DNA from: Arthrobacter sp. Leaf69
GTDB taxonomy: Bacteria > Actinomycetota > Actinomycetes > Actinomycetales > Micrococcaceae
Direction: 5' to 3'
Length of the DNA: 64,000 bases
Assembly (NCBI RefSeq): GCF_001422645.1
Contig: NZ_LMLR01000001.1
Coordinates: 436,325 to 500,324 of the forward strand
Below the pieces are notes generated by a model. The model did no database searches, was not told the DNA's origin, and was given only the letters and a program-made list of their open reading frames with translations. The number at the start of each line of letters is the position of its first letter. Within the stretch, counting starts at the first letter, position 1. Of this stretch, positions 47,826 through 59,045 are shown one piece after another. The position numbers and the translations under genes are program-made.

Positions 47826-48911
47826 GTGTCTTCACATCCGATTCGTGTTGCAATCGTCGGCGTAGGTAACTGTGCCACTTCGCTGGTCCAGGGCGTTGAG
47901 TACTACCGGGACGCCGATCCCCAGGCCACGATCCCGGGCCTGATGCACGTGGAGTTCGGCAAGTACCACGTCAACGACGTCCAGTTCGTCGCCGCGTTCG
48001 ACGTCGACGCCAAGAAGGTGGGCCAGGACCTGTCCGCCGCCATCCTGGCCAGCGAAAACAACACCATCAAGATCGCCGACGTCCCGCCGACCGGTGTGAC
48101 CGTCCAGCGCGGCCCGACCCTCGACGGGCTCGGCAAGTACTACCTTGAGACCATCGAGCAGTCCCCGGAGGAGCCGGTCGACGTCGTCCAGGCGCTCAAG
48201 GACGCCAACGTTGACGTGATGGTCTGCTACCTGCCGGTCGGCTCGCAGGAAGCTGCGGAGTACTACGCCCAGTGCGCGATCGACGCCGGCGTGGGCTTCG
48301 TCAACGCCCTCCCGGTCTTCATCGCCGGCACCAAGGCCTGGGCGGACAAGTTCACCGCCGCCGGCGTCCCGATTGTGGGCGATGACATCAAGAGCCAGAT
48401 CGGCGCCACCATCACGCACCGCGTCATGGCGAAACTGTTCGAGGACCGCGGCGTGACCCTGGACCGCACGTACCAGCTGAACGTCGGCGGCAACATGGAC
48501 TTCAAGAACATGCTGGAGCGGGACCGCCTCGAGTCCAAGAAGATCTCCAAGACCCAGGCCGTGACATCCAACGTGGAGGCCGAGCTGGCCGCCAAGGATG
48601 TCCACATCGGCCCGTCGGACTACGTCCAGTGGCTTGACGACCGCAAGTGGGCCTTTGTCCGCCTCGAGGGCCGCAACTTCGGCGACGCCCCGGTGTCGCT
48701 GGAATACAAGCTGGAAGTCTGGGACTCACCCAACTCCGCCGGTGTGATCATCGACGCCATCCGCGCCGCCAAGATCGGCCTGGACCGCGGCATCGGCGGC
48801 CCGCTGCTCTCCGCCTCGAGCTACTTCATGAAGTCCCCGCCGGAGCAGTTCAACGACGACCTCGCCCGCGAAAAGGTCGAGGCCTTCATCCGCGGCGACC
48901 TGGAGCGCTAA
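47826..48911 (+). CDS. ino1: Inositol-3-phosphate synthase
   Basis: Ino1 converts glucose-6-phosphate to 1D-myo-inositol 3-phosphate, precursor of mycothiol and phosphatidylinositol. The 361-residue actinobacterial-type protein has the NAD-binding start [18 protein letters not shown] and the motifs [12 protein letters not shown] and [13 protein letters not shown] 47826 follows AAAGGAG by 5 bases; the frame is open from 47721. TAGAAT at 47724-47729 is a candidate -10 with a leader of about 90 bases. The product is the acceptor substrate of mshA at 52062. Confidence 0.95.
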
Positions 48912-48920
48912 ACCCGCCCT

Positions 48921-49088
48921 CCGACGCTCCCGCACTTTTGGCGCGTTCCACCCCGACGCTCCCGCACCTTTGGTGTGGGAGCGTCGTGCGTCCGGAGCGT
49001 GCCAGGTTGGCGCTCCCTCACGTCTGGTCGCTACTAGCCCGATCCTCCCTCACGTCGTGCAGGTATCGCAGGATCGCTCCCTCAGACG
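48921..49088. repeat. Left array of 32-bp-period repeats
   Basis: Core words related to CGCTCCCTCACGTC start at 48925, 48957, 49011, 49043 and 49075. Neighbouring cores are 32 bases apart, except for one 54-base step that contains an inverted core. The inverted core pairs with 48954-48986 to form a hairpin (CGACGCTCCC... GGGAGCGTCG) just after ino1, likely its terminator. The last core covers the stop codon of the nuclease-like gene. The orientation is opposite to the right array. Confidence 0.8.
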
Positions 49089-50041
49089 GGGCTGGAAAAG
49101 CCTGCAGCAGACGACGGGCTGAGGTACGCGGTGCGGAGGATTCGTTTAATCTTGGCGGTGGCGCCCTCGAAGCCGTCGGCCAGGTCGTCTTTTGTCAGGA
49201 CGAGTACGTTCCATCCCGCGGACTCGAAGGCCTTGTCACGTCGGCGGTCGCTGAAGATCTGGGCTGGCAGCAGGTGGTGGCCGCCGTCGTACTGGACGGC
49301 CAGCCGACGGCGGCGATACCCAAGATCCGCAGTCGGGGACCCCGGGCTATCCGGGCGGAGCGGGAGCTGCAGCTCCGGCTCCGGGAGACCGGCGTCGCAC
49401 ATCGCCAGGCGTAGCAGTGTTTCTGGAGCCGAGTCGGATCCCACTCGCATCAAGTCCAGGGCCGCCCGGGCGCGGACGATTCCCTGTAGATTCGGGTGGC
49501 GGCTCACCATCGACCGCAGCCCATCGATGGTCGCGAAGGGCTCGTTCCGTCCCTCCAACCCGAACCGCGGAACCCGAACGAGCTCGTCGCCCATGCAGAC
49601 CAATTCGGACAGGCTCAATCGCCGGCCGAGGTCGAGCCACGTGCGGGGACGCGTGCTGATCCGGATGCCGTCCGCTGTTTCAACCTCGTCGTCCAGCGCC
49701 AGAACCGTGTGTCCGACGATCCCCTTGCGCCGGACTTCGGGCAGCGCCCGCGGCTTGCTCAGGTGCAGCTCCTCAGAGTCCGAGAGCCACGGAGGCAAGA
49801 GCTGGCATCGAAGTCTGGCGGCCGTGACGTGCGAGATCCAGGCCCCCGGGGAGGCGGCGGACAGCGCGCGAGCCGCATCCTCCAACTCGAAGTTCCATTC
49901 AGCGGGCCTGTAGAGACCCCGGCTGACATGACTGATGTCGGACTGCTTGAGCCTGGATCTTGGTACTCCCAACGACCGGGCATCGGCGATGGTGAAGGGT
50001 GCTGCGCCGAGTGGACCGGGAAGCTCCATTCGCTTTCTCAT
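49082..50041 (-). CDS. AbiEi/DUF559-like protein with a PD-(D/E)XK-type C-terminus
   Basis: The 319-residue protein has an N-terminal winged-helix-like region (about 12-65, FTIADARSLGVPRSRLKQ...VSRGLYRP) as in AbiEi-type antitoxin proteins, and a middle region with HVTAARL. The C-terminal DUF559/Vsr-like fold (about 200-300) carries PETLLRLA, ADLGYRRRRLAVQYDGGHH and SAGWNVLVLTKDDL. In related proteins the strand usually reads VEYDG; here it is VQYDG (Q250), so one acidic residue is replaced. D239, D252, H255 and H256 are present. No partner toxin gene adjoins. CACAAT ends 6 bases before ATG 50041. Inverted repeat arrays flank it. Confidence 0.75.
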   Translation of the reverse strand: MRKRMELPGPLGAAPFTIADARSLGVPRSRLKQSDISHVSRGLYRPAEWNFELEDAARALSAASPGAWISHVTAARLRCQLLPPWLSDSEELHLSKPRALPEVRRKGIVGHTVLALDDEVETADGIRISTRPRTWLDLGRRLSLSELVCMGDELVRVPRFGLEGRNEPFATIDGLRSMVSRHPNLQGIVRARAALDLMRVGSDSAPETLLRLAMCDAGLPEPELQLPLRPDSPGSPTADLGYRRRRLAVQYDGGHHLLPAQIFSDRRRDKAFESAGWNVLVLTKDDLADGFEGATAKIKRILRTAYLSPSSAAGFSSPV

Positions 50042-50047
50042 GCTGGC

Positions 50048-50053
50048 ATTGTG
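50048..50053 (-). promoter_or_regulatory. -10-like hexamer for the nuclease-like gene
   Basis: CACAAT (minus strand) ends 6 bases before ATG 50041, and no ribosome site precedes that ATG. This matches the layout at 7728-7742. Confidence 0.4.
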
Positions 50054-50151
50054 AACCCATTTTGGTAACCGCGCAGGAGTTATCCACAGGTGTCCAGGAT
50101 CAGCCAGTAGCGGCCAGTGCGGGCTCCGACGGTTGCGCCCTGACCAGTGCA

Positions 50152-50262
50152 GGACGTGAGGGAGGATCAGGTGCGCGGACGCCGGACGTGGGGGAGCGTC
50201 GACTGACGTGGCGCCGGATGTGAGGGAGCGTCGGCTGACGTGGCGCCGGATGTGAGGGAGGG
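50152..50262. repeat. Right array of 32-bp-period repeats
   Basis: Four 14-base cores start at 50153, 50185, 50217 and 50249, exactly 32 bases apart. They read GACGTGAGGGAGGA, GACGTGGGGGAGCG, GATGTGAGGGAGCG and GATGTGAGGGAGGG. The 18-base segments between them are partly conserved (TGACGTGGCGCCG in two). The array ends one base before the fhs stop codon. GACGTGAGGGAGGATC (50153-50168) is the exact reverse complement of 49041-49056 in the left array. Confidence 0.85.
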
Positions 50263-50263
50263 T

Positions 50264-52003
50264 CTAGAAGAGGCCGACGGGGCTGCCTTCGGCGTCGACG
50301 TCCATGCGCATCGCGGCCGGGACCTTCGGGAGCCCCGGCATGGTCATGACCGCGCCGGTGAGGGCCACGATGAAGCCGGCGCCGGTCTTGGGGATGAGGT
50401 CGCGGACGTGCACGGTGAAACCCTTGGGGGCGCCGAGTTTGCTGGCGTCGTCGCTGAAGGAGTACTGGGTTTTCGCCATGCAGACCGGGAAGCCGGACCA
50501 GCCGTTCTTCTCGATTTCCGCGAGCCGTTTGAGCGCCGGGACGGAGAAATCAACGCCGTCGGCGCCGTAGATCTCCTGCACAATCGTCCGGATCTTGTCC
50601 TCCACCGACATCTCCAGCGGGTACAGGTGGCGGAAGGTGTGCGGCGCATCAATGGCCGCGGCGACCTTGGCCGCGAGTTCGTCGCCGCCGTCCCCGCCGC
50701 CGCCCCGGCCCCAGACGTCGGCCACGGCGGCCTGGACGCCCTCGGCAACGCACCACTCCAGCAGCCAGTCGAGCTCCGCCTGGGTGTCTGTGGCGAACTT
50801 GTTGATTGCCACCACCGGCGTGATGCCGAACTTCTCCACGTTGCGCACATGACGCTGAAGATTCACGACGCCGGCAGCCAGCGCGTCCAGGTTGGGTTCC
50901 TTGAGCTGGTCCTTGGGGATACCGCCGTGCATCTTCAGTGCCCGGATGGTCGCCACGACGACGACGGCGGACGGAGCCACGTCGGCGACGCGGGACTTGA
51001 TGTCCATGTACTTTTCCGCACCCAGGTCGGCGCCGAAACCGGCCTCCGTGACGACGATGTCCGCCAGGCTGCGGGCGGTCTGGGTGGCGATCAGGGAATT
51101 GCAGCCGTGGGCGATGTTGGCGAACGGTCCGCCGTGGACCAAAGCAGGGGTCCCGGCAATGGTCTGCACCAGGTTCGGTTTGATGGCGTCCTTGAGCAGC
51201 ATGGTCAGGGCGCCCTGGACCCCCAGCTGGGCGACCGTGACAGGCTGCCGGTCGTAGGTGTAGCCGAACGTGATCCGGCCCAGCCGGTCCCGGAGATCGG
51301 CGAGGTCCGTGGCGAGGCAGAACACCGCCATGATCTCCGAGGCCACAGTGATGTCGAAGCCGTCCTGCCGCGGGATGCCCTGGGTCGGCCCGCCCAGGCC
51401 GATCACCACCTCGCGCAGGGCCCGGTCGTTCATGTCCAGGACCCGTTTGAAGGTCATCCGCCGCGGGTCGATGTTCAGCTCGTTGCCCTGGTAGATGTGG
51501 TTGTCCACGAGGGCCATCAGGGCGTTGTTCGCCGAGGTGACGGCGTGGAAGTCCCCGGTGAAATGCAGGTTGATCTCGTCCATCGGCAACACCTGGGAGT
51601 AGCCGCCGCCCGTGGCGCCGCCCTTCATGCCTAGGATCGGTCCCAGCGACGGTTCACGCAGCGCGATCATGACCTTATGGCCGGCGCGGGCCAGGGAGTC
51701 CGCCAGCCCCACTGTCGTGGTGGACTTGCCTTCGCCGGCGGGCGTGGGCGACATCGCGGAGACCAGCACCACCTTGCCGGGGGCACGCGCCGGGCCGCCC
51801 GCCGTCGAACCTGTCAGCTTTGCCGGATCGATTTTCGCCTTGTACCGGCCGTGGAAGTCCAGGGCCTCGGCATTGATCCCGGCTGCGGCGGCGATGTCCT
51901 CGATCGGCCGCATGGTGGCCCGCTGCGCGATCTCCAGGTCGCTCAGCGGAGCTGTCCCCGGGCCGGGCGTGGCGGGGGTTCCGGGAATCGTGGGTTCAGA
52001 CAT
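50264..52003 (-). CDS. fhs: Formate-tetrahydrofolate ligase
   Basis: The enzyme makes 10-formyltetrahydrofolate from formate, ATP and THF in one-carbon metabolism. The 579-residue protein has the P-loop [14 protein letters not shown] (about 86-99), [32 protein letters not shown] and the C-terminal [13 protein letters not shown]. Its length is normal plus a Pro/Thr-rich N-terminus of about 20 residues. It lies downstream of mshA on the same strand (58 bases apart), possibly one transcript. Confidence 0.96.
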
Positions 52004-58562: not shown

Positions 58563-59045
58563 GTAGGCGGGCTCCCACGCTGGACATGCCCTCCGTGCGG
58601 CCCGGGCAATGGGCATGGTGTCGTTGTGCCCAGTCGTGGGCGCGAACACTGAGCATGTCCCTTTGGCGGGCGCGGGCTGGCGGGGACGTGGGTCTTGCCC
58701 CGGACCAGGTTGAAGCTGGACATGCCCTCCGTGCGGCCCGGGGAATGGGCATAGCGCCGTTGTGCCCGGTCGTTGGCGCGAACACTGAGCATGTCCCCCG
58801 GTGGAGCGGGCGCGGGCTGGCGGGGACGTGGGTCTTGCCCCGGACCAGGTTGAAGCTGGACATGCCCTCCGTGCGGGCCGGGAAATGGGCATAGTGCCCT
58901 TGTGCCCAGTCGCGGGCGCGAACACTGAGCATGTCCCCCGTGGAGGGGGCGCGAACACTGAGCATGTCCCCCTCGGGAGCGGGCGGGGATGCTCCCGCGG
59001 CGGCCCGAATTAAGCCGCATGCGCCGCCACCCCTAGAATCGTTAA
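58563..59045. repeat. Tandem array of 136-140-bp units before alr
   Basis: This 483-base gap holds no gene. Unit starts (GCTGGACATGCCCTCC) lie at 58579, 58715 and 58855, so the units are 136 and 140 bases long. The third is partial and is followed by an extra copy of its end (GCGCGAACACTGAGCATGTCCCC at 58916 and 58949). Each unit has terminal arms GGACATGC and GCATGTCC in inverted orientation (58582-58589 with 58653-58660) and an inner GGGCAnnnTGCCC-like stem. The periods are not multiples of three, so the array does not encode a repeated protein. Confidence 0.85.
59034..59039 (+). promoter_or_regulatory. -10 element for leaderless alr mRNA
   Basis: TAGAAT ends 6 bases before GTG 59046 and no ribosome site is present. 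It lies just past the tandem repeat array, so alr-tsaE-tsaB-rimI-tsaD has its own promoter here. Confidence 0.5.

Follow-up and report, generated by a model that had tools for sequence, protein, structure and literature searches.

A gene in Arthrobacter sp. Leaf69 that encodes a protein with an AbiEi-like and a Vsr/EDxHD-type (DUF559) half lies between inverted arrays of a short core repeat. The arrays accompany this gene in its close relatives, persist when it occupies other sites and are dispersed in genomes of the genus, and individual core bases have changed together with individual residues of the protein. We strongly infer that the protein recognises its core repeats, and consider it probable that gene and arrays are the two halves of one REP/RAYT-like system built on a different enzyme.

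Results

A DUF559 gene between inverted, phased arrays

The window, meaning here the whole stretch of DNA that was analysed, comprises 64,000 nt of the forward strand of the Arthrobacter sp. Leaf69 assembly (GCF_001422645.1, contig NZ_LMLR01000001.1, positions 436,325-500,324). The features of the locus are as follows, in window coordinates.

48925..48970, minus strand: two cores (GTGCGGGAGCG type) in 32 bp phase, directly after the INO1 stop codon
48973..48986, plus strand: inverted core, forming a 15-base hairpin with 48954-48968
49011..49088, minus strand: three cores in 32 bp phase, the final one overlapping the stop codon of the DUF559 gene
49082..50041, minus strand: gene for the AbiEi-like plus Vsr/EDxHD-type (DUF559) protein, an intact ORF of 319 aa
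49706..49768, minus strand: codons for residues 92-112 (LHLSKPRALPEVRRKGIVGHT), the proposed base-reading hairpin, in which residue 102 (E) tracks core base 6
50080..50089, minus strand: CTGTGGATAA element, about 47 bp upstream of the start codon of the DUF559 gene
50153..50262, plus strand: four cores in 32 bp phase, ending one base from the fhs stop codon

The core is 11 bp long (GTGAGNGAGCG); the form belonging to the window protein is GTGAGGGAGCG. Cores start at 48925, 48957, 49011, 49043 and 49075 on the minus strand (the last recognized by eye and as a member of a pair) and at 50153, 50185, 50217 and 50249 on the plus strand, with a spacing of 32 throughout except for the 54 bases between 48957 and 49011. 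An earlier note on this DNA had described the gene, the flanking arrays in opposite orientation with mostly 32-base spacing, the core covering the stop codon of the gene and the other array ending one base from the fhs stop, and the mapped positions bear this description out; the last plus-strand core ends at 50262 and the fhs stop codon is at 50264. It was also right that the 16-base word at 49041-49056 is the exact reverse complement of 50153-50168. The hairpin between 48954-48968 and 48973-48986 (15 bases, 93 % complementary) was absent from the note. Many relatives likewise have, in their downstream flank, a minus core and a plus core separated by about 16-21 bp.

By Pfam, the flanking genes are those of an inositol-phosphate synthase (called INO1 here) and a formate-THF ligase (fhs), and the four nearest genes comprise these two, an aldo/keto reductase and a glycosyltransferase; neither a toxin nor AbiEii (DUF1814) was found by Pfam among those four. 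Rfam gave no family match across 48000-51000. Elsewhere in the window, at 58579-58953, a 140 bp unit is repeated 2.7 times and holds its own inverted word pair (GGACATGC ... GCATGTCC); it is possibly another palindrome family.

An AbiEi-like half and a nuclease-like half

The protein matches the Pfam DUF559 profile at 21.5 bits (cut-off 20.6), and PADLOC AbiEi matches residues 16-141 (E 1e-11). With respect to the Y1/HUH transposase profile (PF01797), the gene matches the DUF559 and AbiEi models instead. The AF2 model of the 319 aa protein (pLDDT 85.6) depicts a DNA-binding AbiEi-like half joined to a homing-endonuclease-like nuclease half of Vsr/EDxHD type. Residues 3-199 of the model align with AbiEi (6y8q; Z 11.4, 177 aligned, rmsd 5.4) and with Rv2827c (Z 8.0), residues 204-307 with the homing endonuclease I-Bth0305I (3r3p; Z 11.2) and residues 202-307 with Vsr (1cw0; Z 9.4). 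Foldseek alone gave I-Bth0305I as the best match (E 6e-3), with nothing below 1e-3. E207, D239, H256 and D265 are invariant in 14 aligned sequences spanning the three classes defined below and, judged by their order and invariance, are putative equivalents of the E, D, H and D of I-Bth0305I. The proposed base-reading hairpin is bounded by the model strands 92-96 and 108-112.

Arrays follow the gene across relatives

The gene family was located in 61 genomes of the same GTDB genus and divided by identity to the window protein into class A (at least 60 %; 40 loci), class B (48-60 %; 30 loci) and class C (about 40 %; 20 of a larger number of listed loci). Arrays were detected as self-similarity at lags 20-45 in 400 bp on each side of the gene, and the core sequence was not used. 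The 60 % line was chosen after arrays had been seen at the 30 best matches (62-100 %) and before the loci below it were inspected.

In class A, lag 32 appeared on at least one side in 39/40 loci and in 69/80 flanks; the next best lag appeared in 9 flanks and is read as a coding repeat in a neighbouring gene. Lag-32 arrays were found in 0/30 class B and 0/20 class C loci. A second set of 80 loci, from genomes titled Arthrobacter, Pseudarthrobacter or Paenarthrobacter, supplied 56 new distinct genes, duplicates with an identical 400-base stretch having been dropped before counting, here as in the tree and the pooled data below. Above 60.5 % identity, the line used for this set, arrays were present in 44/46 genes (on both sides in 42), and among the others in 1/10, this one (L184, 60.0 % identity) being class A in the tree. 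A third batch came from 206 genomes, with four places (contig ends or partial matches) left out.

In the pooled data, for which the line was 60 %, arrays flank 143 of 146 distinct relatives, on both sides in 122. Genes without arrays were among the checks named in the earlier note, and they amount to the three close relatives at which no array was detectable. Lag 32 is shown by 265 of the pooled flanks, lags 31 and 33 by 21 and 20, and nine other lags tested between 24 and 40 by 2-6. Only 1/60 more distant DUF559 genes has arrays (L400, at 59.9 % identity and outside the line). The array bearers fall in one clade (84/87 rows, SH-aLRT 98), with 4 changes of state in the tree. Neighbouring ORFs, drawn as controls from 60 loci of which ten were class A, behaved differently: in the ten class A loci 17/29 touch an array on one side and 1/29 on both, and in the 50 class B and C loci 1/138 on one side and 0/138 on both.

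The site does not cause the arrays

The class A gene sits at INO1/fhs and in two other recurrent contexts, and is flanked by arrays at each. Lag-32 arrays are absent around twelve class B genes of the 61-genome set that also occupy the INO1-fhs gap, and around sister genes of the second set at INO1/fhs. The site, then, does not cause the arrays, and the alternative offered in the earlier note, that the gene simply sits in a repeat-rich spot, fails because these sister genes at the very same site have none.

The comparison of empty sites covers INO1-fhs. In three genomes whose class A gene is elsewhere (G039, G059 and G023), the gap contains a minus/plus array whose centre lacks a gene; in two others (G034 and G041) it contains a terminator-like hairpin only. 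A solo class B-type palindrome was also observed at the 3′ end of INO1 (G046 and G005; L242 and L260), where others carry the gene or an array.

Core bases and protein residues have changed together

The core sequence differs between lineages, and co-change with the protein was examined in the 122 of the 146 loci that have at least three cores, loci with fewer being dropped. Of all columns, residue 102 shares the most mutual information with core base 6 (0.61, against 0.41 for the next), the common pairings of base and residue being G with E (23/33), A with S (47/57) and C with G (24/28). On a tree of 242 branches inferred with columns 88-116 left out, the changes at base 6 (15) and at residue 102 (17) coincided on about 7.7 branches (p 4.7e-7), which makes residue 102 the best of 270 columns for base 6, with the next column at p 1.8e-3. 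Base 7 co-changed with residue 112 (p 3.8e-6) and base 5 with residues 112 and 102 (p 7e-5 and 2e-4); co-change of base 8 was weak.

A second null gave each branch a weight according to the amount of change in the remainder of the protein. Of its 20,000 draws, the observed value was reached by 0 for base 6 with residue 102, 2 for base 7 with residue 112, 13 for base 5 with residue 112 and 40 for base 5 with residue 102; for base 8 it was reached by 232 (residue 98) and 898 (residue 112). Taken together, residues 94-115 show enrichment for bases 5, 7 and 8 and not for base 6 (p 0.15). In a smaller set of 72 loci, residue 102 was top by mutual information and third by excess co-change; at 122 loci it ranked first. 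Independent-pairs tests point in the same direction and are not significant, the pairs being too few.

Six genomes carry two class A genes. In G161, a gene with Q102 and K98 lies in GTGATGGGGCG-type arrays and the other, with S102 and R98, in GTGAGAGAGCG arrays; in G160, a gene with S102 and T112 has GAGA cores and a gene with G102 and R112 has GCGC cores. In both genomes, the two in which the paired genes differ in core type and both core sets can be read, each gene's arrays match its own reading residues, a pattern that host-wide drift cannot give. The two genes of G174 resemble each other in residues and in cores. Those of G127 differ at residue 102 (S and A) and share A at base 6; in each of G243 and G257, only one of the class A genes has a core set.

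Arrays are dispersed in genomes of the genus

A single loose core (at most 2 mismatches) occurs in the window at chance, with 16 matches against 15.4 expected. Core pairs 32 apart, searched for in the whole Leaf69 genome, were found at 35 places with at most 2 mismatches (0 for the reversed control) and at 56 with at most 3 (3 for the reversed pattern); it is the 32 bp phasing, not the single core, that exceeds chance. Core pairs are present in 53/61 genomes of the genus. Arrays without the gene were the other check in the earlier note: at least one core pair occurs in 14/21 genomes in which no full class A gene was found (G009 has a fragment), but core pairs are clearly fewer in these 21 than in the 40 gene-bearing genomes (Mann-Whitney p 1e-5). 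Four genomes without a class A gene are rich in arrays, with 158 (G043), 59 (G032), 56 (G028) and 22 (G025) core pairs. The INO1 contig of G043 ends about 60 bp after an array, and INO1 was not found in G028; assembly gaps may explain these two cases, though not G032 or G025. One very long array in G032 (G032:C171:25985-26827) has 26 consecutive core pairs at a 32 bp step and two alternating core types.

Arrangement was scored in 27 array clusters within 40 fetched loci, using a core pattern narrower than the family and our own ORF calls as genes. Both orientations are present in 15/27 clusters, and in 15/15 of these the minus array comes first and the plus array second, pointing away from the centre. 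The dispersed arrays are mostly at gene ends, not between divergent promoters: 25 positions could be classed as convergent (9), codirectional (15) or divergent (1). In five genomes they are mostly of the same core type as the flanks of the gene (clearly in G000, G057 and G002, partly in G051 and G050). A guide array with CRISPR- or TIGR-like spacers was considered in view of the 32 bp unit with its variable part. It was set aside because near-identical spacers are frequent within a single array and because the arrays form inverted pairs.

Other classes are flanked by their own palindromes

Genes of classes B and C have flanking palindromes as well. These are long and differ between the classes, with one copy located at the stop codon and another some 70-130 bp upstream. 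An inverted-repeat score of at least 12 between the two flanks of the gene was reached by 33/40 class A, 27/30 class B and 19/20 class C genes. With narrower flanks, a score of at least 12 was reached by 76/90 genes against 6/192 control ORFs, and a score of at least 15 by 24/40 (A), 25/30 (B) and 19/20 (C) against 0/192 other ORFs, so that classes B and C together stand at 44/50 against none of those neighbouring ORFs. One class B palindrome (AAGTGACCCCGCGTTGC half-sites, at most 1 mismatch) is dispersed, with up to 104 half-sites per genome; its control gave 2 matches in all 61 genomes. At least 15 such half-sites occur in 17/17 genomes with its gene (among the matches listed) and in 8/44 others (p 1e-8). 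The class C palindrome of the Leaf69 genome has two looser sites there (3 mismatches) besides its gene. The Leaf69 genome itself holds a shortened DUF559 paralogue (L034; G000:C10:874631) that matches residues 3-156 only and is flanked on both sides by its own long palindrome, CGAGGTGAGACTTCGCGCC.

An exact TGTGGATAA lies upstream of 40/40 class A, 24/30 class B and 17/20 class C genes (81/90), and in most genes of all three classes the CTGTGGATAA element sits between the upstream repeats and the start codon. We take CTGTGGATAA (TTATCCACAG on the opposite strand) to be DnaA-box-like.

DUF559 was found in 33/60 genomes drawn from the class Actinomycetes. Among 29 DUF559 genes of this class-wide set (a 30th locus had no profile match), a score of at least 15 is reached by 13 and one of at least 17 by 10, against 1/29 and 0/29 control ORFs; two of the 29 are from this genus, and the 13 are all from other genera. 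The CTGTGGATAA element was not seen upstream of these 29 genes.

Discussion

The earlier note suggested that the repeat family and the protein may be a unit, by analogy with REP elements flanking RAYT genes. Our data support this reading, since the arrays are kept at different loci, dispersed arrays occur free of the gene, and core and residues have changed together. In REP-RAYT systems (REPtrons; TnpA-REP), the gene is flanked by inverted repeats, and the repeats are dispersed at gene 3′ ends, form inverted doublets and are subfamily-specific (PMC2817692, PMC3733652, PMC8266576). The window gene resembles these in its position between inverted arrays, found on both sides in most of its close relatives, and in the dispersal of its repeats. 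The systems differ in the enzyme, which is AbiEi-like plus Vsr/EDxHD-type here and not a Y1/HUH transposase; in the core, which by reading is without the GTAG/GTRG head; and in the tandem half-sites at 32 bp phase that class A has in place of a single hairpin. A RAYT as the mover of the arrays is disfavoured, PF01797 having been found in 0/20 genomes searched.

A mechanism that we infer from these observations would begin with binding of the 11 bp core by the AbiEi-like half, the step we hold most likely and regard as very probable. The hairpin at residues 98-112 would read core bases 5-8. The 32 bp step corresponds to three helical turns of B-DNA, so bound copies would sit on one face, where several molecules could load, the arrays on either side of the centre pointing away from each other. 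The Vsr/EDxHD-type half may then nick or cut at or near the core sites, and repair from another copy would spread and homogenize the arrays, and occasionally the gene, in a homing-like or REPtron-like manner. We give even chances to this part of the mechanism, in which the nuclease half cuts the arrays and repair copies them and sometimes the gene. Spreading by cutting and repair would explain the dispersal, the lineage-wide uniformity of cores, tandem growth and relocation.

AbiEi-type autoregulation alone could account for the gene-adjacent sites, and the chief rival is a regulator with many operators: the arrays and palindromes would be operators, for autoregulation and for controlling or structuring other loci, the nuclease half would serve another purpose, and ordinary recombination would spread the repeats under selection for binding. 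The AbiEi-like half fits such a role, as does the position of the CTGTGGATAA element between the upstream repeats and the start codon, and the DNA-binding half has a precedent in that AbiEi and Rv2827c bind pairs of 23 bp inverted repeats upstream of their own genes (PMC7319586). The window protein shares with these antitoxins the fold of residues 3-199 and the inverted repeats near its own gene. However, the protein here has a fused nuclease half, whose putative catalytic residues are invariant in the aligned sequences; the repeats also stand at the gene's 3′ end, and those that are dispersed lie mostly at gene ends, with a single divergent position among the 25 classed by our own gene calls. 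Relocation together with arrays, and gene-free arrays at the same site, look like the work of a spreading element. On balance, we consider a regulator alone unlikely.

Less probable still, and in our judgement improbable, is that the arrays are host 3′-end elements (RNA hairpins, terminators or nucleoid sites) kept by something else, with the gene landing or being tolerated among them. Arrays do often abut stop codons and can form hairpins, and genomes without the gene can hold many of them. Yet the gene retains its arrays at several sites, at one of which sister genes have none; in the two informative cases, the core type within a genome varies with the gene that the arrays surround; residues and bases have co-changed; and no Y1/RAYT-type partner was found in any of the 20 genomes searched. 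That the gene is an AbiEi-like defence or toxin-antitoxin gene with incidental repeats in a repeat-rich spot agrees with the PADLOC match, but the excess of both-side arrays over neighbouring ORFs and the lack of a toxin, including one of AbiEii type, among the four nearest genes make this very improbable.

In the favoured reading, a REP/RAYT-like system, the nuclease half invites comparison with EDxHD homing endonucleases. It shares the catalytic-domain fold of I-Bth0305I and Vsr, with E, D, H and D in order and invariant, and I-Bth0305I dimerizes on a target of nearly 60 bp (PMC3943268). Unlike a homing endonuclease gene, the gene here sits between genes, with no intron or intein seen, and is flanked by its putative target words and does not interrupt a single target; gene-free arrays at INO1-fhs exist, and cleavage of them is presumptive. 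Another DUF559 protein that is Vsr-like, Caulobacter VsrA, is required for the DNA damage response in a mutant background and is linked to a cytosine methyltransferase (PMC12907096); this link sets it apart from the protein studied here, and the accessible portion of that source mentions no repeats. In the open-access literature we found no paper linking DUF559 or AbiEi-nuclease proteins to dispersed repeats, and no description of these Arthrobacter repeats.

More broadly, we propose, tentatively and at a little less than even chances, that AbiEi-like plus Vsr/EDxHD-type (DUF559) proteins are an unrecognized class of repeat-partner enzymes across Actinomycetes, in which each subfamily would read its own dispersed palindrome or phased array through a simple residue-to-base code in a short hairpin and spread it by cutting DNA. 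Such enzymes would add a third route, next to DDE and HUH transposases, by which genomes become filled with small repeats.

Pfam still lists DUF559 as a domain of unknown function, although it is widespread in the class. Here, one DUF559 subfamily is tied to a repeat family by position, relocation and co-change with specific residues, which makes binding directly testable. If our interpretation is correct, an unrelated nuclease would have come to the REP/RAYT way of life, in which an enzyme gene lives amid dispersed repeats of its own, and the occurrence of intergenic repeat families in Arthrobacter-type genomes would be explained.
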